This document shows, piece after piece, positions 1 through 34,035 of a stretch of DNA of 64,000 bases. The notes beneath the pieces are model-generated. The model did not search any database. It worked only from the letters and a program-made list of their open reading frames with translations, and was not told the DNA's origin. The stretch comes from Clostridia bacterium. Its GTDB lineage: Bacteria > Bacillota > Clostridia > Oscillospirales > Butyricicoccaceae. Location of the stretch: positions 1 through 64,000 of the forward strand of contig JAFYPP010000094.1 of NCBI GenBank assembly GCA_017559995.1, given 5' to 3'. Each line of letters starts with the position of its first letter. The first letter of the stretch is position 1. The translations under genes and the position numbers were made by a program.

Positions 1-931
1 CATCGCACAGGCGGCGCACCGAATCGGCGCTCATAGCGCCTTCCAGCAGCAGCACGTCGCCCTGACCGGCGTATTCCTGCGCCTTGCGGGCGCAGTCGGC
101 GGTCTCCAGCGCGGCGCAGCGCAGCTTGATGCCTTCCAGCTCGCCCTGCAGCCGCTCCACAGCGGCGGCGGTCTGCATGGGTTTGGCGCTCAACGCACGG
201 GACACGGCGACATTCTGCTCCCAGACCCCCGACAGATAGTCAAAGGCACGCTTGCCGCACAGCAGCTCGATGCGGACGCCCTCCCGGAACTTCTGGCAGG
301 ACAGCAGCTTGATCAGGCCCACCTGACCGGCCCGCAGCACGTGGGTGCCGCAGCAGGCGCAGCAGTCGGCGCCGGGGAAGGCCACCAGCCGCACCAGACC
401 GGGGATGAACTTCTTGGAGCGGTACTCCGCCTTCTGAAGAGCCTCTCCCTCCAGAAAACGGATGTCGATGGGGGTGTCGCTCCAGATAAAGGCGTTGGCC
501 CGGGCCTCGATGGAGGGCAGGTCAACGGGGTCGATGTCGTGGTTGAAATCGATGGTGACCACGTCCTTGCCCATGTGGAAGCCCACGTTGTCGCAGCCGT
601 ACCGGGCGCAGATGATGCCGCTGACGATGTGTTCGCCGCTGTGCTGCTGCATATGGTCGAAGCGCCGCTCCCAGTCGATGACGCCGGTGACGGCGGTGCC
701 TGCAGGCAGTTCCTTGTCGCACTTGTGGAGGATGACGCCCTCCTTTTCCCGCACGTCGGTGACTCTGGCACCGTTCAGCGTGCCGAAGTCGGTGGGCTGG
801 CCGCCCCCTTCGGGATAAAAGGCGGTGCGGTCCAGAGTGACCGTCCAGCCGGTTTTGTCCTGTTCACAGGATAGAACGGTGGCGGTGAACTCCTTCAAAA
901 ACGGGTCGGTATAGTACAGTTTTTCAGTCAT
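1..931 (-). CDS. AlaX-type alanyl-tRNA editing protein (partial, 3' end outside window)
   Basis: Translating the minus strand from the ATG at 929-931 gives 310 uninterrupted codons that run off base 1. The first ~85 residues match the N-terminal barrel of the AlaRS editing module, including the motif FYPEGGGQP. A zinc-site HxxxH follows at about residues 97-101 (MQQHSGEH) and a second metal motif (CCGTH) near residue 200, followed by a helical DHHA1-like region. Proteins of this kind hydrolyse mischarged Ser- or Gly-tRNA(Ala) in the cytoplasm. No synthetase catalytic domain precedes it, so it is the free-standing long form (AlaX-L). The start overlaps the stop of the upstream ferredoxin gene by 8 bp, indicating translational coupling as the last visible gene of a minus-strand operon. 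Confidence 0.88.
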   Translation of the reverse strand, partial: MTEKLYYTDPFLKEFTATVLSCEQDKTGWTVTLDRTAFYPEGGGQPTDFGTLNGARVTDVREKEGVILHKCDKELPAGTAVTGVIDWERRFDHMQQHSGEHIVSGIICARYGCDNVGFHMGKDVVTIDFNHDIDPVDLPSIEARANAFIWSDTPIDIRFLEGEALQKAEYRSKKFIPGLVRLVAFPGADCCACCGTHVLRAGQVGLIKLLSCQKFREGVRIELLCGKRAFDYLSGVWEQNVAVSRALSAKPMQTAAAVERLQGELEGIKLRCAALETADCARKAQEYAGQGDVLLLEGAMSADSVRRLCD

Positions 932-1694
932 TGGTTTCGGTTTCCTTCCATTCGGGACACAGATAGCGGGGTTTGCCCACACTCTTTCTGCCGTATTCGA
1001 TGGCCTTGGTGGGACAGTGGCTGATGCAGGCCATGCAGTGAATGCACTCGTCGGTCCAAACCGGTCGTCCGGAAGCGAGGCTGATGTTGCTGCGGGGGCA
1101 AATACGGGCGCACTTGCCGCAGCCCATGCAGGCGGCGGTGGTGCGGAAGGGCTTCGCCGTCACCACGCCGCGGGTAAAGACCGTGTTGACGATACCGGAC
1201 ATGGCCTTACCGCCCAAACCGGCCTTGACGGTGGGCAGGGACAGGCCCTGGGCCATCAGCGGCACTGTCCGCTCCAGCCGCTTGTCGGCTTTTTTGATGA
1301 TGACGGTGGCCGCCCGCTCGTCGGGCACGGGGAACATGGCAATGTAGTTTTCCGGCATCACCAGAGGCTGCAGACCCTTGAAGGTCAGGCCTTTTTTGGC
1401 GCACAGCTGCCGCAGATGCTGTTCGGCGTTGCCCACGCCGCTGCCGCAGGTCATGACGAAATAGGCTTCCTTGCTGCCCTGCAGGTCGGCGTTCAGAATG
1501 AGATCCCGGAACACGTGGGGCAGCTGCCAGCCGTAGGTAGGCGCCACGAAGATCCACGGCGTGTCCGACTGCAGCTCCAGCCGCTTGCCCTCACGGATAT
1601 AGGGCGTGGCGTCGGTCAGCGGCCGGTTCAAACGGCTGCCCAGCAGCTGGGCAGCACGGCGGCTGTTGCCGGTACCGGTGAAATAAACGATCAT
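924..1694 (-). CDS. EFR1-type flavodoxin/4Fe-4S ferredoxin protein
   Basis: This 256-residue protein begins with a flavodoxin-like FMN phosphate loop (YFTGTGNSRR, residues 4-13). It ends with two 4Fe-4S cluster motifs, CMGCGKCARICP and CIHCMACISHCP, in the last ~70 residues. That order is typical of EFR1-family ferredoxins, cytoplasmic electron carriers of anaerobic Firmicutes whose partners are mostly unknown. The start overlaps the stop of the preceding amidohydrolase by 4 bp (ATGA). Placement between amidohydrolases and a tRNA-editing protein gives no clear clue to its partner. Family assignment is firm; function is not. Confidence 0.87.
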   Translation of the reverse strand: MIVYFTGTGNSRRAAQLLGSRLNRPLTDATPYIREGKRLELQSDTPWIFVAPTYGWQLPHVFRDLILNADLQGSKEAYFVMTCGSGVGNAEQHLRQLCAKKGLTFKGLQPLVMPENYIAMFPVPDERAATVIIKKADKRLERTVPLMAQGLSLPTVKAGLGGKAMSGIVNTVFTRGVVTAKPFRTTAACMGCGKCARICPRSNISLASGRPVWTDECIHCMACISHCPTKAIEYGRKSVGKPRYLCPEWKETETND

Positions 1695-25494: not shown

Positions 25495-25523
25495 TTGACG
25501 GTTTTCAGTAAAACTGGTATAAT
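25495..25523 (+). promoter_or_regulatory. strong sigma-A promoter for the lipoprotein-ApbE-Rnf operon
   Basis: TTGACG (25495-25500), 17-bp spacer, consensus TATAAT (25518-25523). It lies 190 bp before the lipoprotein start. Confidence 0.85.
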
Positions 25524-25529
25524 CAAAAA

Positions 25530-25713
25530 GCGTGTTTCGATAATTTTTTACCGAGTCTTAACCATACGTTTTTTGTTGTTAAATAACGGTTTTTGAGATC
25601 AGATGGTGGGAAAGTTTTCCAGCAGTTCCGACGCAACCGGGAGCAAATCTGCCGGGAGACCGACTGCCGTTTGGTGGAGGAAACCGAAATATAAAAAGAA
25701 GAGGGATTTTTCA
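25530..25713 (+). promoter_or_regulatory. long 5' leader with a GC-rich structured part, function unknown
   Basis: The 330-bp gap between hisK and the lipoprotein gene holds a terminator, a promoter and this leader. Bases 25600-25690 are GC-rich and can fold: GGAA/TTCC near 25608-25619, and GCAGT (25622-25626) with ACTGC (25663-25667) closing an inner region containing GGGAGACC. This last element recalls the B12-box of cobalamin riboswitches, but the other core segments are absent, so no riboswitch is called. Confidence 0.35.
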
Positions 25714-26742
25714 ATGAAGAAGATCATCGCTATCATGCTGGCCGCCTGCTGCCTGCTGTCTCTGGCCGCTTGCGGTTCCAAGGAAGCCGACTACAAGCTG
25801 GGCATGGGTGTTGAGCTGAGCACTGCCTCCTCCAAGGAGAACAACGCTCAGGTCGACGCTACCGTTGCCACCGTTGTGCTGGATGCCAACGGCAAGATCG
25901 TTATGTGCCGCATCGATGTGGCCCAGAACAAGATGGATGTCACCGGCGGCGCTGTTGACACTGCCAAGACCTTCGAGACCAAGATGGAGCTGGGCTCCCG
26001 CTATGGCATGGAGGGCAAGGTTGACAACAACGGCGACGGCGTCATGAAGGAGTGGGACGCTCAGGCCAAGGCTTTCGAAGAGTACGTCGTGGGCAAGACC
26101 GCTGCTGAGGTCAAGGCCATCAAGACCCAGGAGGCTAACGGCCACCTGATCGCTGTTGACGAGGCTCTGCTGAAGGCCGGCTGCTCCATGCAGATCACCG
26201 ACTTCATCACCGCTGTTGCCAAGGCTTGCGAAGACAAGGCTGCCGTCTCTTTCAAGGCTGCTGAAGGCTTCAAGCTGGGCGTTGCTGCCAAGTCCACCGC
26301 TGCCGAGTCCAAGGCTGCTTCTGCCGAGGGCAACGGTTCCGTCAACATGTACTCTGACTTCGGCGCTGCCGTTGTTGCCGCTGACGGCAAGATCCTGGCC
26401 GCTCTGAACGATGCTACCCAGCCCAAGATCGCCATCGACACCAACGGCGCTATCGTTGAGGCTGCCTTCAAGGGCACCAAGCGTGAGCTGGGCTCTGCCT
26501 ACGGCATGGAGGGCAAGGTTGACAACGACGGCAACGGCGTCATGCTGGAGTGGGACGCTCAGTCCGCTGCCTTCTCCGCCTTCTGCGTTGGCAAGACCGC
26601 TGCTCAGGTTGCCGGTCTGCAGACCCAGGAAGCCGGCGGTCACCTGATCGCTGTTGACAAGGAGCTGCTGGAGGCTGGCTGCTCTATGCAGATCACCGGT
26701 CTGATGGCTGTTGTCGCTCAGGCTGCCAACTACGCTCGCTAA
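25714..26742 (+). CDS. two-repeat lipoprotein, FMN-binding-domain-like
   Basis: 342 residues with a lipoprotein signal peptide (lipobox LAAC, Cys 20). Two homologous ~140-residue units follow. Each runs from a strand pair ending VxxDANGKI-type through KxELGSxYGMEGKVDNxGxGVMxEWDAQ to VGKTAAxV and a Cys-containing AGCSMQIT helix start. The units resemble FMN-binding-domain lipoproteins of Clostridia, but neither has the SGA(T/S)-type flavinylation motif. Codons such as GCT and GTT are far commoner than in neighbouring genes, suggesting high expression. It precedes apbE and rnf genes, so an extracytoplasmic redox or binding role is inferred. SD AGAGGG precedes the ATG. Confidence 0.75.
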   Translation: MKKIIAIMLAACCLLSLAACGSKEADYKLGMGVELSTASSKENNAQVDATVATVVLDANGKIVMCRIDVAQNKMDVTGGAVDTAKTFETKMELGSRYGMEGKVDNNGDGVMKEWDAQAKAFEEYVVGKTAAEVKAIKTQEANGHLIAVDEALLKAGCSMQITDFITAVAKACEDKAAVSFKAAEGFKLGVAAKSTAAESKAASAEGNGSVNMYSDFGAAVVAADGKILAALNDATQPKIAIDTNGAIVEAAFKGTKRELGSAYGMEGKVDNDGNGVMLEWDAQSAAFSAFCVGKTAAQVAGLQTQEAGGHLIAVDKELLEAGCSMQITGLMAVVAQAANYAR

Positions 26743-26784
26743 ATCAAATATTATCTGTACATAACATAGTAGGGGTTGAACCAA

Positions 26785-27843
26785 TTGAATTGGCTGAAAA
26801 AAGGATTGAGCTTGTTTTGCTTGCTGGGGCTGCTGGCCTCTTTTGCAGGCTGCTCCCAGAACGAGGTCAAGCCGACAGACCCAATGGGTAAGGTCTATTT
26901 CAATTGGTTCGACACCGTCTCCTATGTGTATAGCTATGCAGGGGACCCGGCCGAGAGATTCGAAGAACTCTCTGCCGGGATTTCCGGCATTTTGACCGAA
27001 TATCATCAGTTGTTTGATATCTACCATGAATATTCGGGCATCAACAATTTGTGCACCATCAACCGCCTTGCCGGCGGCGATCCGCTGCCGGTGGACCCCA
27101 AACTCATCGAGTTTCTGCGCTATGCGGAGGACCTGTACGCACGGACCGACGGCGAGATGAACATCCTGCTGGGCCCGGTGCTGAAGATCTGGCACGATCA
27201 CCGCACCGCTGCCACCGAGGATCCTTCTGCGGCCTCTCTGCCTGCGCAGGAAGCGCTGGACGAGGCCAACCTGCACACCGATTTCTCCCTGCTGGAGATC
27301 GATGAGGAACGGGGCACCGTCCGGCTCACCGATCCCAACGCGGCCATCGACGTGGGCGCTTTGGGCAAGGGCTACGCCACCGAAAAGGCTGCGCTGTATC
27401 TGGAAGCACAGGGCGCTGCAAGCTACGTGCTGAACATCGGCGGCAACATCCGCATCGTGGGCACCAAACCCGACGGCACCGGCTGGCGCACGGCTGTGAA
27501 GGATCCCGAGGATCCCGAAAACAGCTACGCGGCCATCCTGGATATCGCCGACACCGCCTGCGTCACCTCCGGTGACTACGAGCGGTTCTTCGCGGTGGCG
27601 GGGAAGCAGTACCACCACATCATCGACCCCGATACCCTTTGGCCGGCGGAGCAGTTCGCCTCGGTGACCATCATCACCCGGGACAGCGGTCTGGCCGACG
27701 CTTTGAGCACCGCGCTGTTCTGTATGTCCTACGAGGACGGCCTGGCGCTGGTCAGCGGCATGGGTGGGGTGGAGGTTCTGTGGATCGACCACGACGGTAC
27801 CCTGCGGTATACCGAGGGCATGAAAGCCCTGATGACAAATTGA
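26785..27843 (+). CDS. apbE: FAD:protein FMN transferase (ApbE), lipoprotein
   Basis: About 352 residues with a lipoprotein signal (lipobox FAGC) and the ApbE fold. MGKVYFNWFDTVSYVYSY is an early region, DVGALGKGYATEKAALYLE the FAD-site helix, GGNIRIVGTKPDG the loop after it, and HHIIDPDT with DALSTALFCM the metal-binding end. The start is a TTG; the one at 26785 lies nine bases after TAGGGG and is preferred over the TTG at 26776. ApbE attaches FMN to Thr/Ser of target proteins outside the membrane. RnfG and RnfD, encoded just downstream, carry such target motifs, giving an obvious substrate set. Confidence 0.93.
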   Translation: MNWLKKGLSLFCLLGLLASFAGCSQNEVKPTDPMGKVYFNWFDTVSYVYSYAGDPAERFEELSAGISGILTEYHQLFDIYHEYSGINNLCTINRLAGGDPLPVDPKLIEFLRYAEDLYARTDGEMNILLGPVLKIWHDHRTAATEDPSAASLPAQEALDEANLHTDFSLLEIDEERGTVRLTDPNAAIDVGALGKGYATEKAALYLEAQGAASYVLNIGGNIRIVGTKPDGTGWRTAVKDPEDPENSYAAILDIADTACVTSGDYERFFAVAGKQYHHIIDPDTLWPAEQFASVTIITRDSGLADALSTALFCMSYEDGLALVSGMGGVEVLWIDHDGTLRYTEGMKALMTN

Positions 27844-27900
27844 TGATACCCGAGTGTTTATAATTATTTTTAAAATAAAATCAGAGGAGGAAGGAAACTG

Positions 27901-29238
27901 ATGCAGTTCAGAAAAAACATTTCGACGCTGAAAGTGCACCACAACAAAAACACGGCTGCCTGTGAGCCTGTCCGTGTCGCTCCCCCCAAGGAAGTTCTGC
28001 TCCCCATGAACATGCACTCCGGATCTCCCGCCGAGCCTATCGTGGCCGTGGGTGATCATGTGCGTGTGGGTCAGCTGATCGCCAAACCCGGCGAGGGCAC
28101 TTCCTGCCCCGTCCACGCTACCGTTTCCGGTACCGTCACTGCCATCGAGCCTTATAAGCAGGCCGACGGCCGTTCCGCTCTCACCATCAAGATCGAGAGC
28201 GACGGTAAGATGGAGCGGGATCCCAACCTGAAGCCCCCCGTCTTTGACGACTTGGACGGCTTCCTGGCCGCCGTCAAGGACAGCGGTGTGGTTGGTCTGG
28301 GCGGCGCGGCATATCCCCTGTGGGGCAAGCTGGATGCCGTCCGCAAGAACCAGATCGACACCGTCCTGGTGAACGCCGCCGAGTGCGAGCCCTACATCAC
28401 CTCCGACACCCGTATGATGGTGGATAACACCGAGCTGGTCGTCAAGGGCGTGGAACTGCTGCACAAGTGGATGAACGCCAAGAAGGTGGTCATCTGTATC
28501 GAGGACAACAAGCAGGAGGCCATCAAGAAGCTGAACGAGGCTCTGGCCGACAAGGATTGGGCCGAGCTGTTCATCCTGCCTGCCATCTATCCCCAGGGCG
28601 CCAAGCAGGTCCTGCTGTACAACGTCACCGGTCAGGTGGTCAAGGGCGGCCAGCGTATGGCCTCCATGGGCGTTATCATCATCAACGTCTCTTCCACCGC
28701 CAAGATGGCCGAGTACATGGAGACCGGTATGCCTCTGGTGGACCGTATCGTCACCATCGACGGTTCCGCCGTCAAGGAGCCCAAGAACCTGCTGGCTCCC
28801 ATCGGCACGCCCCTGAGCTATCTGGTGGAGCAGGCCGGCGGCCTGAAGTGCGAGCCCGGCAAGGTGCTCATCGGCGGCCCCATGCTGGGTGCTGCTGTGG
28901 CATCCATGGACGAGCCCTCCAAGAAGGCCACCAACTCCGTGCTGTTCCTCACCGAGAAGGAAGCCAAGATCTATGAGCCCACCGCCTGTATCCGCTGCGG
29001 CCGCTGCGTGGCCAACTGCCCCGTCAGCCTGAATCCCGCCGCTCTGGCCCGTGCCATGGAAAACGAGAATGCCGACGTCCGCTTTGCCAAGCTGCAGGAG
29101 TTCTCCGTTGGCCAGTGCATCGAGTGCGCCTGCTGCTCTTACGTCTGCCCCGCTCACAAGCCTCTGATGGAGAGCAACAAGCAGGGCAAGCGCTTTGTCA
29201 AAAAGTACAAAGCCGAACACGCTGAAGGGGGGAAATAA
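27901..29238 (+). CDS. rnfC: RnfC-like subunit of an Rnf-type membrane complex
   Basis: A 445-residue RnfC. N-terminal barrel-sandwich region VRVGQLIAKPGEG and VHATVSGTV, FMN/NADH-type region GVVGLGGAAYPLWGKL and NAAECEPYI, and two 4Fe-4S motifs CIRCGRCVANCP and CIECACCSYVCP near the C-terminus. RnfC is the peripheral cytoplasmic subunit that exchanges electrons with NADH in standard Rnf complexes. Good SD (GAGGAGG). It is the first of the rnf genes; order here is C-D-G-E-A. Confidence 0.93.
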   Translation: MQFRKNISTLKVHHNKNTAACEPVRVAPPKEVLLPMNMHSGSPAEPIVAVGDHVRVGQLIAKPGEGTSCPVHATVSGTVTAIEPYKQADGRSALTIKIESDGKMERDPNLKPPVFDDLDGFLAAVKDSGVVGLGGAAYPLWGKLDAVRKNQIDTVLVNAAECEPYITSDTRMMVDNTELVVKGVELLHKWMNAKKVVICIEDNKQEAIKKLNEALADKDWAELFILPAIYPQGAKQVLLYNVTGQVVKGGQRMASMGVIIINVSSTAKMAEYMETGMPLVDRIVTIDGSAVKEPKNLLAPIGTPLSYLVEQAGGLKCEPGKVLIGGPMLGAAVASMDEPSKKATNSVLFLTEKEAKIYEPTACIRCGRCVANCPVSLNPAALARAMENENADVRFAKLQEFSVGQCIECACCSYVCPAHKPLMESNKQGKRFVKKYKAEHAEGGK

Positions 29239-29241
29239 ACC

Positions 29242-30162
29242 GTGGCTAAACTGACTGTTTCCGCCGCTCCGCACATTCATAGCGGCGCTTCCACCAACCG
29301 GATCATGCTGGACGTGATCATCGCCCTGCTGCCAGCTACCGTGGCTTCCGTGGTGATCTTCGGTCTGAAGTCCCTGATCGTCATCGCCGCCTGTGTCATC
29401 ACCGCTCTGGTGGGTGAGGCACTGTTCAACATCATCACCAAGAAAAAGCAGACCATCGGCGATCTGTCCGCCGTGGTCACCGGCCTGCTGCTGGCCCTCA
29501 ACCTGAGCACCAACGTGCCCGCCTGGCAGTGTGTCGTGGGCACCCTGTTCGCCATCGTCTGCGTCAAGTGCCTGTTCGGCGGTCTGGGCTGCAACTTCGC
29601 CAACCCCGCCATCACCGGCCGTGTGTTCATGCTGGTGGCCTTCTCCGCCGTTGCCGGCGGTGCCAACCCCACCATCGTGGATCTGACTACCTCCGCCACT
29701 CCTCTGGAGCTGCTGGCCAAGGGTGAGAGCCAGAACCTGATGGATCTGTTCCTGGGCCTCCACGGCGGCGCCATCGGCGAGACCTGTATCCTGGCCCTGA
29801 TCATCGGCTTCGTCTACCTGCTGGTCCGTAAGGTCATCACCTGGCACACTCCCGTGGTGTTCATCGTCACCGTGTTCGCCCTGTACCTGGCCTTCACCGG
29901 CGATGTGATGATGGCTGTCAGCCAGATCCTGGCCGGCGGTCTGTTCATCGGTGCCATCTTCATGGCCACCGACTACGTGACCACCCCCATCACCACCCGC
30001 GGCCGCGTGGTGTTCGCCCTGGGCTGCGGTGTCATCACCTTTATCATCCGCTATTTCTGCGCTTATCCCGAAGGCGTGTCCTTCTCCATCCTGATCATGA
30101 ACATCCTGACTCCCTTCATTGAGAAGTGGACTGCCAAGGAACCCCTGGGAGGTGTGAAGTAA
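29242..30162 (+). CDS. rnfD: RnfD-like flavinylated membrane subunit
   Basis: A 306-residue multi-spanning membrane protein of the NqrB/RnfD family with GTG start. The flavinylation motif DLTTSATPL is present, with Thr 153 the expected FMN acceptor, attached by ApbE. Conserved segments GNFANPAITGRVFM-like (CNFANPAITGRVFML) and ATDYVTTPIT are also seen. It carries electrons across or along the outer face of the membrane. The stop overlaps the rnfG start by one base. Confidence 0.92.
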   Translation: MAKLTVSAAPHIHSGASTNRIMLDVIIALLPATVASVVIFGLKSLIVIAACVITALVGEALFNIITKKKQTIGDLSAVVTGLLLALNLSTNVPAWQCVVGTLFAIVCVKCLFGGLGCNFANPAITGRVFMLVAFSAVAGGANPTIVDLTTSATPLELLAKGESQNLMDLFLGLHGGAIGETCILALIIGFVYLLVRKVITWHTPVVFIVTVFALYLAFTGDVMMAVSQILAGGLFIGAIFMATDYVTTPITTRGRVVFALGCGVITFIIRYFCAYPEGVSFSILIMNILTPFIEKWTAKEPLGGVK

Positions 30163-31448
30163 TGGCTAACAAGCAAACCGGTAAGGCTATTGCGGTGCTG
30201 GCTGCCCTGTTCGTGGTATTCTCCGCCGCCATGTTCGGCCTGAACTTCGTCACCGGCCCCATGATCGAGGCCAACAACGCCTCCCAGGCTTACGGCCCCC
30301 TGTTCGCCGTCATGCCCGAGGCCGATGATTTCGAACCCATCTACATGGCCGACGGCAGCGTGGTCTCCACCCTGGTGGAAGTCCCCGAGACCGTCAAGGC
30401 CGTCTATAAGGAGACCTCCGGTCTGGGTTACGCCCTGAAGATGTCCACCACCAAGGGCTACACCGGCAACGCCATCGAGCTGACCTTCGGCGTCAACAAC
30501 GAGGGCAAGATCTCCGGTATCCAGCTGGATGCGTATCCCGAGTCCAAGGACTTCGGCGCCGAGTATCCCGGCACCTTCGTGGGTCAGGACTCCACTCTGG
30601 CCGGCGTGCAGATCGTTTCCGGCTGTACCTACTCCTCCGTGGCTTTCCGCGATGCCGTTGCTGACGGTATGAACCTGCTGATCGCCAACGATATGATGGC
30701 CGCCGGCGTCAAGAGCGACGACCAGCTGCTGAGCGAGCTGATCCCCACCGTCCACACCGGTCTGGTGAACAACATCGGCGCCGCCCAGTACGAGGAACTG
30801 GAGGGCGACGGTGCTTCCATCGTGAAGATCCTGAAGGCCCGCAACAACTCCGGCTTCGGCTACATGATGAAGGACGGCGACGTCAGCCTGCTGGCTGTTG
30901 TCAACGCCTCCGGCAGCGTGAAGGTCTATAACACCGAGGGCGCCGACGTCACCGCTGACTACGCTGCCGCTGCCGATACCGCCAAGGCACACGCCGAGGC
31001 CAACATCGTCACCAACGTGGACAAGGACACCCAGCGCCTGAACGTGCTGATGGCCGACGCCACCGTCACCGCCATCCCCGTGGAGGGTGTGTTCAACTCC
31101 GTCACCAGCGCCTACAAGCTGGAAAAGGACGGCGCCACCTACTACGGTCTGGTTTCCCGCAGCTACGGCTACGACAACGAGGTCATGGGTGTCTACTACA
31201 TCCTGGACGAGCAGGGCGCCATCGTTGGCATGATGGCCGATGAGCTGATCTTCCACGCCGAGTACTTCAGCACCTACACGCTGGATCCCGCCGCTTACAA
31301 GGCCGGCTTCCAGGGGCTGACCGCTGACACCTGGACCGGTGAGCAGGCCATCATTTCCGGTGCTACCATGACTTCCGACGCCGTGAAGACTTCCACCAAC
31401 GATATCTTCGAGGCTTACAACATCCTGAAGGGAGGCGCTGCAGAATGA
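30162..31448 (+). CDS. rnfG: double-length RnfG-like protein with two FMN-binding domains
   Basis: 428 residues, about twice the usual ~200 of RnfG. The start is the ATG at 30162 (MANKQTGKAIAVL), one base inside the rnfD stop. After an N-terminal membrane anchor (about 8-28) come two FMN-binding units. The first ends with SGCTYSS (Thr 156), a variant of the flavinylation motif in which Ala is replaced by Cys. The second ends with the canonical SGATMTS (Thr 402). RnfG carries covalent FMN on the outer membrane face. A two-flavin version would hold one or two FMNs, depending on whether the variant site is modified. Confidence 0.88.
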   Translation: MANKQTGKAIAVLAALFVVFSAAMFGLNFVTGPMIEANNASQAYGPLFAVMPEADDFEPIYMADGSVVSTLVEVPETVKAVYKETSGLGYALKMSTTKGYTGNAIELTFGVNNEGKISGIQLDAYPESKDFGAEYPGTFVGQDSTLAGVQIVSGCTYSSVAFRDAVADGMNLLIANDMMAAGVKSDDQLLSELIPTVHTGLVNNIGAAQYEELEGDGASIVKILKARNNSGFGYMMKDGDVSLLAVVNASGSVKVYNTEGADVTADYAAAADTAKAHAEANIVTNVDKDTQRLNVLMADATVTAIPVEGVFNSVTSAYKLEKDGATYYGLVSRSYGYDNEVMGVYYILDEQGAIVGMMADELIFHAEYFSTYTLDPAAYKAGFQGLTADTWTGEQAIISGATMTSDAVKTSTNDIFEAYNILKGGAAE

Positions 31449-32083
31449 GCGAGAAAAAACTGTGCTGCGTGATCGCTGAGAATCCTCTGCTGATCCTGTT
31501 CTTGGGCGCCTGTACCGCCATGGGCGCCACCACCACCCTGCTGGGTGCCGTGGCCATGGGCGCTGCCGCCCTCATCGTGATGGTGCTGTCCGCTCTGGTC
31601 ATCACCGCCCTGAAGAAGGTCATTCCTCAGTGCGCCCGCATCCCCGCCGTGGTGATCATCGTCACCGGCTTCGTCTCCATCGTCCAGATGCTGATGAACG
31701 CTCTGCTGCCCGAAGTCTACCAGATGCTGGGCATCTACCTGGCCGTAGCTGCCGTGGATCTGCTGATCTTCGGCACCGCCGACGAGTCCTGTGTGGTCCG
31801 TGCCGTCAAGAACGGCCTGCGCTTCCTGGTGATCCTGGTCATTATGGGCCTGGTTCGCGAGGTGCTGGGCAGCGGCTCCGTGGCCGGCTTCGACATTCCC
31901 TTCCTGGCCGACTACACCATCCCCGTGATGACCAAGGCCCCCGGCGGCTTTGTGGTCTACAGCTTTGTGGCCGCCGTGGTCTCCAAGCTGCACAAGGAAC
32001 CCAAGCTGGAGGGCACCGGCGCTGCCTGGTCCGCCGCCGGCATGGAGTGCTGCTGCTGCAAGAATGAGGAGGTTGAACAGTAA
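31445..32083 (+). CDS. rnfE: RnfE-like membrane subunit with altered cluster site
   Basis: A 212-residue, six-helix membrane protein of the NqrD/RnfE family. In known complexes RnfE and RnfA each give two Cys to one intramembrane [2Fe-2S] cluster. Here the first position is kept (LGACTAMG, Cys 23), but the second (normally TNC before a Gly) reads VDLLIFG, with Leu 106 in place of Cys. An unusual C-terminal tail carries four Cys in a row (MECCCCKNEE). Start overlaps rnfG by 4 bp. The family call is firm; standard electron transfer is doubtful. Confidence 0.88.
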   Translation: MSEKKLCCVIAENPLLILFLGACTAMGATTTLLGAVAMGAAALIVMVLSALVITALKKVIPQCARIPAVVIIVTGFVSIVQMLMNALLPEVYQMLGIYLAVAAVDLLIFGTADESCVVRAVKNGLRFLVILVIMGLVREVLGSGSVAGFDIPFLADYTIPVMTKAPGGFVVYSFVAAVVSKLHKEPKLEGTGAAWSAAGMECCCCKNEEVEQ

Positions 32084-32640
32084 TGGATAAGTCTTTGTTT
32101 GCCATCCTGCTGGGCGGCGTCCTGCTGAACAACTACGCCCTGCAGAGCTTCCTGGGTGTCACCACCTTCCTGGGTGCCTCCCGTGATACCAAAAAGGCCA
32201 CCGTTATGGGTATCGCCGTCACCGTGGTCATGACCCTGGCCGGTTTCTTCACCTGGCTGGTCAACAATTTCGTGCTGGCCGCCTTCGGTCTGGAGTATCT
32301 GCAGACCCTGGTGTTCGTCACCATCATCCTGGCCGTTGCCTATCTGGTGGGCGCTGCCGCCAAGGCCGTCACCAAGAAGGGCCTGGGCATCTTCTTCCCC
32401 CTGGTGGCCCTGAACAGCGCCGTGCTGGGTGTCACCCTGAACAACGTCACCGAGGGTTACAGTCTGCTGCAGGCTCTGGTGTCCTCCGTGGCCGTTGGTC
32501 TGGGCTTCCTGCTGGCCATGGTGGTCTTCTGCGGTGTCCGCTCCAAGATCGAGGAGCAGTACGTGCCCAAAGCCTTCCGCGGCCTGCCCATCCAGCTGAT
32601 GGCTGCTTCCATCCTGGCTCTGGCACTGTTTGCCTTTTAA
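32083..32640 (+). CDS. rnfA: RnfA-like membrane subunit lacking both cluster cysteines
   Basis: A 185-residue, six-helix membrane protein of the NqrE/RnfA family: VLLNNYALQSFLG at the start, MGIAVTVVMTLAG, and ALNSAVLGVTLNN. Standard RnfA reads FLGLCP and TTNCAVLG at the two cluster sites; here they read FLGVTT (Thr 27) and ALNSAVLG (Ser 112). Both [2Fe-2S] ligands are therefore gone. Start overlaps rnfE by one base (TAATG). The next gene is not rnfB, which is absent from the window. Confidence 0.9.
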   Translation: MDKSLFAILLGGVLLNNYALQSFLGVTTFLGASRDTKKATVMGIAVTVVMTLAGFFTWLVNNFVLAAFGLEYLQTLVFVTIILAVAYLVGAAAKAVTKKGLGIFFPLVALNSAVLGVTLNNVTEGYSLLQALVSSVAVGLGFLLAMVVFCGVRSKIEEQYVPKAFRGLPIQLMAASILALALFAF

Positions 32641-33000
32641 ATGAAAAAGCGTTTTTGGGACATCCTGCTCATTGGCGGATGTCTGCTGATGGCCGCCGCC
32701 CTCTTCCTGTTTTCCCACTTGGGCCGGGAAGCGGGCGCCGGCGTCATCGTCCGTGTGGATGGGGAAGAGGTGACCCGTTACAGTCTGTATGACAACGGCA
32801 CCTATCCCCTCAACGGCGGCACCAACACCCTGGTCATCGAAAACGGCGAAGCGTGGCTCAGCCACGCCAACTGCCCCGATGAGCTGTGTGTCAAGCAGGG
32901 CAAAGTCCGTGCCGACGGACAGGTCATCACCTGTCTGCCCAACAAACTGACCGTCACCGTCTTTGGCGGTGAGCAGAACGACGTGGATCTGATCAGCTGA
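32641..33000 (+). CDS. NusG domain II-containing extracytoplasmic protein
   Basis: 119 residues starting directly after the rnfA stop. One N-terminal transmembrane helix (about 7-24), then an external NusG-II-like domain with WLSHANCPDELCVKQG and VITCLPNKL. Three Cys are placed as in other members. Such proteins are commonly found beside ApbE and Gx-transporter genes in Firmicutes. The biochemical role is not known to me. Context suggests an accessory of the flavin-based redox system. Confidence 0.85.
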   Translation: MKKRFWDILLIGGCLLMAAALFLFSHLGREAGAGVIVRVDGEEVTRYSLYDNGTYPLNGGTNTLVIENGEAWLSHANCPDELCVKQGKVRADGQVITCLPNKLTVTVFGGEQNDVDLIS

Positions 33001-33019
33001 ACGAAAGGAGGAATATGGT

Positions 33020-33511
33020 ATGAAAGCGTCCAAACTGTCACTTCTGGCATTGTCTGTGAGCCTTGCCATGATCCTCTCCTTCGTGGAAAGCCAGATCCCG
33101 GCCATGGTGGCCATCCCCGGCGTCAAAGTGGGTCTGGCCAACATCGTGGTGGTGTTCGCTCTGTATAAGCTGGGCTGGAAGCACGCGGCGGTGATCTCGC
33201 TGACCCGTGTGTTTCTGGTGGGCCTGCTGTTCGGTAACGGTATCAGCATCCTGTACAGCTTCACCGGCGCCATCGTCAGTTTCGCGGCCATGCTGCTGCT
33301 GAAAAAAGCCAGGGTGTTTTCCACCATGGCCGTCAGCGTGGCGGGCGGTGTGCTCCACAATCTGGGACAGATCGCCATGGCCTGTGTCATCATGGGCACC
33401 GACGTGCTGCGGTATTATGCCCCATTCCTGATCCTCAGCGGCACGCTGGCCGGTATCGCCATCGGCGTGCTGGCCGCCATTATGATCCGCCGGATCGATG
33501 TCAACGCCTGA
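33020..33511 (+). CDS. Gx transporter/heptaprenyl-diphosphate-synthase component I family membrane protein
   Basis: A 163-residue protein with about five transmembrane helices and the family start (SFVESQIP, then IPGVKVGLANIVVVFALYKLG). The family name is historical: it resembles small S-component-like transporters and often neighbours NusG-II and ApbE genes. A link to import of a flavin or quinone precursor is inference. SD AAAGGAGG precedes the ATG at 33020; an upstream in-frame ATG meets a stop at once. Confidence 0.85.
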   Translation: MKASKLSLLALSVSLAMILSFVESQIPAMVAIPGVKVGLANIVVVFALYKLGWKHAAVISLTRVFLVGLLFGNGISILYSFTGAIVSFAAMLLLKKARVFSTMAVSVAGGVLHNLGQIAMACVIMGTDVLRYYAPFLILSGTLAGIAIGVLAAIMIRRIDVNA

Positions 33512-33536
33512 CGGCGTGACCGATAGGAGATCGAAC

Positions 33537-33995
33537 ATGAAAAAGTTTACAAAGCAGTTTGGTGTAGTTTTGATCGTCGTGCTGGTGGTGCTGGTACTGC
33601 TGGCGGTGTTCCGTTTCGTCGGCGCCGACAGCACCCTCACTCGTGATATGAAAGAGCTGTGGGGCGTAGAACTGCCCGAAGGCTATGCCATCGCCTACCG
33701 CGCGGCTACCGACACCACCATGAAGGACGGCGGTCTGCGGTATCACGTTTTGGCCTACACCGACGATTCGGTGCTGGAAAACTGGCAGGATTGGGGCGAC
33801 GGCACCCAGCCGGCCCGCTTCGCCGCCACCCAGATAGCGGCTGCGGAGGACATCCTGTCCGCCCTGAACGTGCCCAAGGGCGAATGGCCCGAGGCCGATC
33901 AGATGTGGTACACCTCCACCGAAAACGGCTCGGAGCTGGTGATCGTTTACGATTACGTGCTGACCCAGCTGTTCCTTATCGAAAGCTGCAAATAA
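33537..33995 (+). CDS. small membrane-anchored protein at the end of the Rnf operon
   Basis: 152 residues starting MKKFTKQFGVVLIVVLVVLV at 33537 (SD AGGAGA), with a single N-terminal anchor and an external domain of ~120 residues. No family is recognised. It is 25 bp after the Gx gene and directly before a strong terminator, so it closes the operon that starts at 25714. Confidence 0.65.
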   Translation: MKKFTKQFGVVLIVVLVVLVLLAVFRFVGADSTLTRDMKELWGVELPEGYAIAYRAATDTTMKDGGLRYHVLAYTDDSVLENWQDWGDGTQPARFAATQIAAAEDILSALNVPKGEWPEADQMWYTSTENGSELVIVYDYVLTQLFLIESCK

Positions 33996-33998
33996 AAA

Positions 33999-34035
33999 GA
34001 GCGCTGAGAACCAGGTTCTCAGCGCTTTCTTTTTT
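33999..34035 (+). terminator. strong terminator of the Rnf operon
   Basis: AGCGCTGAGAAC / CAG / GTTCTCAGCGCT, a perfect 12-bp stem (34000-34026), followed by a T-rich tract. Confidence 0.92.

Follow-up and report, generated by a model that had tools for sequence, protein, structure and literature searches.

A 64,000-nucleotide stretch of a Clostridia metagenome-assembled genome (MAG) of the family Butyricicoccaceae (GenBank assembly GCA_017559995.1, contig JAFYPP010000094.1, positions 1 to 64,000; hereafter the window) contains an operon for homologues of the Rnf subunits RnfC, RnfD, RnfG, RnfE and RnfA. Here, we show that this operon represents a new and rare Rnf variant, in which rnfB is missing and three of the four cysteines that hold the shared cluster of RnfA and RnfE have been replaced, while all genes of the operon are under purifying selection. 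In established Rnf and Nqr complexes, RnfB and the RnfA/RnfE cluster link ferredoxin and RnfG, and RnfD and RnfC link RnfG and NAD (PMC9588780, PMC12174285). We suggest, with a probability of roughly 0.6, that the operon encodes a derived, one-armed second Rnf that would export electrons from NADH outward, in one direction only, by way of flavins. The source genome measures 2.0 Mb, with 97% completeness and 5.4% contamination.

The operon lacks rnfB and three of four cluster ligands

The gene order rnfC-rnfD-rnfG-rnfE-rnfA-NusG_II-Gx, first described in an original prediction made from the DNA letters, was borne out by gene calls and family matches, and all seven frames are open with no frameshift or stop. 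That prediction had also found no rnfB at this locus. Using full-length RnfB from 15 other operons as queries, we detected neither rnfB nor a remnant of it between rnfA and the NusG_II gene, the position that it occupies in rnfB-bearing relatives; the gap here is 0 bp. Genome-wide, the RnfB FeS domain occurs only in one hydrogenase/PAS-type sensor protein on contig C25 and in a standard rnfCDGEAB operon on contig C8, so that the proposed search for rnfB and a standard operon elsewhere returned one of each. The C8 operon has all four cluster cysteines, and its RnfC-D-E-A are only 39% identical to those of the window; an rnfB elsewhere that groups with the window operon was therefore rejected, the sole rnfB of the genome belonging to the other operon. 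Although contig C8 is just 7 kb in length, its operon is native, since further genomes of the genus have operons whose RnfC-D-E-A are 92–94% identical to it. A flavodoxin-ferredoxin fusion (EFR1-like; positions 924–1694, minus strand), which is not RnfB, accounts for the weak RnfB matches seen in the window.

In the Rnf complex of C. tetanomorphum, the metal ligands are Cys25 and Cys113 of RnfA and Cys26 and Cys109 of RnfE, and these four residues have been described as strictly conserved across the Rnf/Nqr families (PMC9588780). In an alignment to 7zc6_A, RnfA of the window has T27 at the position of Cys25 and S112 at that of Cys113; in an alignment to 7zc6_E, RnfE keeps C23 at the position of Cys26 and has L106 at that of Cys109. 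These are exactly the residues named originally, and they leave one ligand of four. The motifs around the sites have been rebuilt as well (FLGxCP to FLGV[TS][TN], TTNCAVLG to ALNSAVLG, and VNCIILGRAE to V[DN]LL[IV]F). The same losses recur in four other MAGs (below; together with the window, the five Cys-poor loci) and are far beyond chance. With such replacements, the normal [2Fe-2S] site in RnfA/RnfE is predicted not to form.

The arm between NAD and RnfG is retained

We defined invariant residues on 16 rnfB-bearing sets and asked how many of them the Cys-poor copies keep. The numbers are 57 of 59 in RnfD and 50 of 59 in RnfC, against 26 of 55 in RnfA and 21 of 46 in RnfE; similarly, the NCBIfam cut-offs are exceeded by RnfC and RnfD but not by RnfA, RnfE or RnfG. 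RnfC has the FMN (flavin mononucleotide)/NADH domain and both four-Cys [4Fe-4S] motifs intact. RnfD retains the flavinylation Thr153 (TSATPL) for covalent FMN together with N87, N121, E180 and D244, the counterparts of the proposed Na+/riboflavin residues of 7zc6. In agreement with the two-flavin RnfG proposed originally, RnfG has two predicted flavinylation-type motifs, SGCT (T156) and SGAT (T402). Because double-length RnfG also occurs in rnfB-bearing relatives, this doubling is older than the loss of rnfB. The predicted model of RnfG is poor (predicted local distance difference test, pLDDT, 56), and its best fold matches are RnfG chains. Judged by sequence conservation, the pattern is that of a complex which has given up one arm and retained the other rather than of decay, and it is from the parts conserved that we infer a flavin-based transmembrane electron carrier.

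One residue of the retained arm differs consistently: position 235 of RnfC, within the PQGGEK motif and close to the nucleotide site, carries Lys in all Cys-poor copies that were compared, and 16/16 rnfB-bearing copies have Glu. This substitution may have changed the NADH/NADPH preference; however, it is not decisive because RnfC of A. vinelandii has Ala at this position, and we no longer take it as pointing to NADPH use.

In addition to the genes originally described, the operon has those for a tandem-repeat lipoprotein and ApbE upstream of rnfC, and the stretch from a promoter-like site to a terminator-like hairpin (25495–34028) apparently forms a single transcription unit. Packing is tight: rnfC and rnfD are 3 bp apart, rnfD through rnfA overlap by 1–4 bp, and the NusG_II gene directly abuts rnfA. 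The features are as follows.

25495..25523, plus strand: promoter-like site TTGACG-17-TATAAT with TG (extended -10); 11/12 matches in a consensus scan, a consensus match only
25714..26742, plus strand: tandem-repeat lipoprotein (2 repeats, each ending AGC[ST]); no Pfam match
26776..27843, plus strand: ApbE, FAD (flavin adenine dinucleotide):protein FMN transferase with lipoprotein-like N-terminus; PF02424, E 4.5e-68
27901..29238, plus strand: RnfC with Nuo51-type FMN/NADH domain, SLBB and two CxxCxxCxxxCP [4Fe-4S] motifs; TIGR01945, 410.5 bits (cut-off 246)
29242..30162, plus strand: RnfD, stand-alone PF03116 protein of 306 amino acids; TIGR01946, 293 bits (cut-off 207)
30162..31448, plus strand: RnfG, 428 amino acids; PF04205, below the NCBIfam rnfG cut-off
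31445..32083, plus strand: RnfE, one of two cluster Cys left; 111 bits, below the NCBIfam rnfE cut-off of 213
32083..32640, plus strand: RnfA, both cluster Cys lost; 162 bits, below the NCBIfam rnfA cut-off of 229
32641..33000, plus strand: NusG domain II protein, EetA homologue; PF07009
33020..33511, plus strand: Gx/Hpre_diP_synt_I protein, EetB homologue; PF07456
33998..34028, plus strand: intrinsic-terminator-like hairpin with 14-bp stem; a consensus match only

A small open reading frame at about 33537–33995, the last in the unit, has no counterpart in the loci of relatives and is not counted with the system. No Rfam elements were found in the operon.

The NusG_II and Gx genes do follow rnfA as predicted; however, they are not bystanders: they are homologous to eetA and eetB, which form a flavin-supply pair associated with ApbE. 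EetB of Listeria is an ECF-S subunit that exports FAD for ApbE, and eetB co-locates with Rnf in 572 Clostridia genomes (PMC9973259). Therefore, the simplest role for eetA, eetB and apbE here is the loading of covalent flavins. An apbE gene clustered with that of an extracytosolic protein predicted to bear FMN (RnfG with its two motifs), and here also with eetB, is a feature that the operon shares with ApbE-flavinylated extracytosolic electron-transfer systems. The family of the tandem-repeat lipoprotein adjoins eetB and apbE in many rnfB-bearing Rnf operons that are linked to eetA and eetB (EetAB-linked); the lipoprotein is a candidate for a new flavin carrier.

A proposed one-armed electron exporter

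Our working hypothesis takes as the ancestor an Rnf with the ordinary six subunits, encoded in an EetAB-linked operon. After deletion of rnfB and loss of three of the four RnfA/RnfE ligands, electrons would no longer cross between ferredoxin and RnfG, consistent with the original proposal that the ferredoxin-RnfB-cluster route is absent. With this arm gone, the remaining chain would connect NAD(H) only with RnfG and with any partner that RnfG has outside. Electrons would then move from NADH to the FMN and the two [4Fe-4S] clusters of RnfC, to the riboflavin and covalent FMN of RnfD, and on to the two covalent FMN of RnfG, which would pass them outward, perhaps via the tandem-repeat lipoprotein, to an extracytosolic acceptor; ApbE and EetB would supply the covalent flavins. 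For RnfG and RnfD, RnfA and RnfE would serve as a scaffold that has no cluster or, possibly, as an ion path. In 7ZC6, helices of RnfG and RnfB pack on RnfA/RnfE (PMC9588780), and the two subunits may have been kept for a structural need of the complex or because they conduct ions. It speaks for this hypothesis that the standard Rnf of the genome covers the ferredoxin:NAD reaction.

Several points weigh against it. The electron path gives no explanation for the continued selection on RnfA and RnfE (below). We found no extracellular acceptor enzyme, and FMN_bind occurs genome-wide only in the two RnfG proteins. Flavin binding by the lipoprotein is not supported: a profile comparison matched just 12 columns and the predicted model is poor (pLDDT 51), and we rejected the protein as an FMN_bind relative. 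RnfC E235K, being near the nucleotide site, makes NADH a probable rather than a certain donor. Finally, all genomes with the variant are MAGs, and the case comes from sequence analysis.

The same half-complex could also run in reverse, from an extracellular or periplasmic donor through RnfG, RnfD and RnfC to NAD+. This is the direction of this arm in ferredoxin-driven Rnf (PMC9588780), and the parts list fits it equally well; however, there is no candidate periplasmic dehydrogenase or cytochrome among the operon genes and a neighbourhood of eetA, eetB and apbE is known from electron transfer in the outward direction, and we therefore consider reverse flow unlikely. Similarly doubtful is that RnfA/RnfE still hold a metal centre through other ligands (RnfE C23 with non-Cys groups or RnfA C150), reduced in trans by RnfB of the standard operon. 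RnfE C23 and a new cysteine, RnfA C150, are indeed kept in 5/5 Cys-poor copies, and a complete RnfB is encoded elsewhere in the genome. However, these two are the only cysteines so conserved over both subunits, C150 is predicted to lie near the GVRSK loop and away from the mid-membrane kinks, and the VNCIILGRAE and TTNCAVLG motifs are never rebuilt in this way in rnfB-bearing relatives; we rejected the two cysteines as a replacement pair for the cluster. A more speculative role for RnfA/RnfE, to which we assign a low likelihood, is that of an alternating-access path without redox function for Na+, H+ or flavin. The mechanical drive would come from the two-flavin RnfG as it swings, such that outward NADH electron export would be coupled to ion or flavin movement. 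If true, this would be a new coupling scheme made from Rnf parts.

All genes of the operon are under purifying selection

The ratio of nonsynonymous to synonymous substitution rates (dN/dS) is well under 1 in every gene (about 0.07–0.43), including rnfA (0.11–0.36, compared with 0.17–0.20 in the standard operon) and rnfE (0.22–0.43, compared with 0.33), and RnfD is 87% identical between the two genera that have the variant. Purifying selection thus acts on all operon genes. It could be argued that the operon is decaying or silent since about half of the invariant residues of RnfA and RnfE are gone and the variant is sporadic, being present in 3/9 genomes of the window's genus and 2/4 of a second genus; however, the open frames, these dN/dS values, the near-complete conservation of RnfC and RnfD across five genomes and the presence of promoter-like and terminator-like sites make decay very unlikely, as the original prediction had held, and we ruled it out.

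The variant descends from EetAB-linked Rnf operons

Cys-poor rnfA was found in 5/87 genomes of the family (G000, G075 and G077 of the window's genus; G065 and G067 of the second), with RnfA identities of 65–95%. The four MAGs other than the window's own are of herbivore-gut origin: sheep rectum, water deer colon, water buffalo cecum and goat colon. As a survey of relatives had been proposed to reveal, all five loci share the gene order, the lack of rnfB and the Cys losses. Despite the 5.4% contamination of the window's MAG, an assembly or binning artefact is exceedingly improbable and was ruled out by the same arrangement at these levels of divergence in four independent MAGs.

Beyond the Cys-poor copies, the closest RnfA in 394 genomes of the order are 44–52% identical, and those read all retain both cysteines. 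Most of their operons have the order rnfC-D-G-E-A-B-eetA-eetB, with apbE and a lipoprotein of the family described above often lying downstream. In fetched loci with downstream sequence, rnfB lies downstream of rnfA in 53/53 Cys-bearing and 0/5 Cys-poor cases, counts that are not independent events because the five Cys-poor loci form one clade. In a tree of RnfC+D+E+A, this clade, anticipated as a test in the original prediction, has an ultrafast bootstrap of 100; it is sister to two rnfB-bearing EetAB-linked operons (bootstrap 100) and nested inside the EetAB-linked group, and the standard Rnf of these genomes falls elsewhere. Therefore, the window operon descends from EetAB-linked Rnf, and its arrangement reads as the loss of three ligands along with a clean deletion of the rnfB that lay between rnfA and eetA. 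The stem branch of the clade is long, with no intermediate among the genomes compared. The original idea of a new class thus stands in so far as the rnfB-less, Cys-poor loci form a clade; with two genera only and an rnfB-bearing EetAB-linked ancestor, they are better described as a derived Rnf variant.

A search for the AGY-Ser codon pattern in 398 genomes of the phylum, a sample survey that misses other replacements, gave no further case; two more matches had a stop codon inside the motif and were discarded as chance. A DNA pattern for Ser, Thr or Ala at the second RnfA Cys gave 3 matches in 391 genomes of the class, this pattern being blind to the AGY serine used here.

Separately, we observed in one EetAB-linked Rnf (L087, genome G206) a short RnfB match of about 87–107 amino acids, as if RnfB here had been reduced to its membrane helix and first ferredoxin domain, possibly a step towards RnfB loss in another lineage. 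We also observed that most EetAB-linked RnfE (rnfB-bearing loci L083–L092) have a Cys-rich C-terminal tail (CxGCPx4-6C...C) that is absent from standard RnfE; the C-terminus of the window RnfE (~198–205) retains the Cys run CCCC. The tail is possibly an extra metal or Fe-S site.

Comparison with known systems

Literature searches, with subscription literature outside their coverage, returned no earlier description of an Rnf in which both rnfB and the cluster cysteines are missing; the genome paper of Desulfotignum phosphitoxidans lists rnfCDGEA and a cytochrome-like gene. The variant is important because three cysteines and rnfB were dropped together while the other parts were kept under selection, separating the two electron arms of Rnf. 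It raises the question of what RnfA and RnfE do besides electron transfer, and it offers a natural half-complex in which to ask whether RnfC-D-G exports electrons without the return arm. For herbivore-gut Clostridia, it is possibly a respiration-like outlet.

Compared with the Rnf complexes of C. tetanomorphum (7ZC6) and A. woodii (9ERI), the window system shares homologues of RnfC, D, G, E and A, the RnfC cofactor motifs, the RnfD flavinylation Thr and Na+/riboflavin residues, and the RnfG FMN motif; it differs in lacking RnfB and three of four cluster cysteines, in the doubled RnfG and in the strong divergence of RnfA and RnfE. Because RnfB and the four cysteines are defining features of Rnf, we call the system an Rnf-derived variant and not an Rnf. 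The EetAB-linked Clostridia operons (rnfCDGEAB-eetA-eetB) are direct relatives with shared neighbours and RnfD 48–63% identical, but in them rnfB is still present between rnfA and eetA, and none of the four cysteines is lost.

For the two-subunit "NQR/RNF-like" systems, one-way flow to an extracytosolic FMN domain has been proposed (PMC8238504, PMC11334425). These consist of an NqrB/RnfD-NqrF-type fusion without the RnfD flavinylation site and one FMN_bind subunit, whereas the window system has RnfC, a full RnfD with its Thr and no fused NqrF-type NAD domain, and RnfA/RnfE. Flavin-based extracellular electron transfer in Listeria (Ndh2, PplA, EetA, EetB, FmnA, FmnB) likewise involves EetA, EetB and ApbE homologues and a lipoprotein; there, the membrane is crossed by Ndh2 and quinone, whereas we propose crossing by RnfC-D-G. 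Lastly, the Na+-translocating NADH:quinone oxidoreductase (Na+-NQR) has been proposed to originate from duplication of rnf followed by loss of rnfB (PMC4014512). Na+-NQR kept the cluster, recruited NqrF as electron-input subunit and stripped RnfC of its cofactors; in contrast, the window operon has no NqrF gene, keeps RnfC and has its cluster arm stripped. The variant is thus a mirror image of that proposed origin, with the opposite arm kept.

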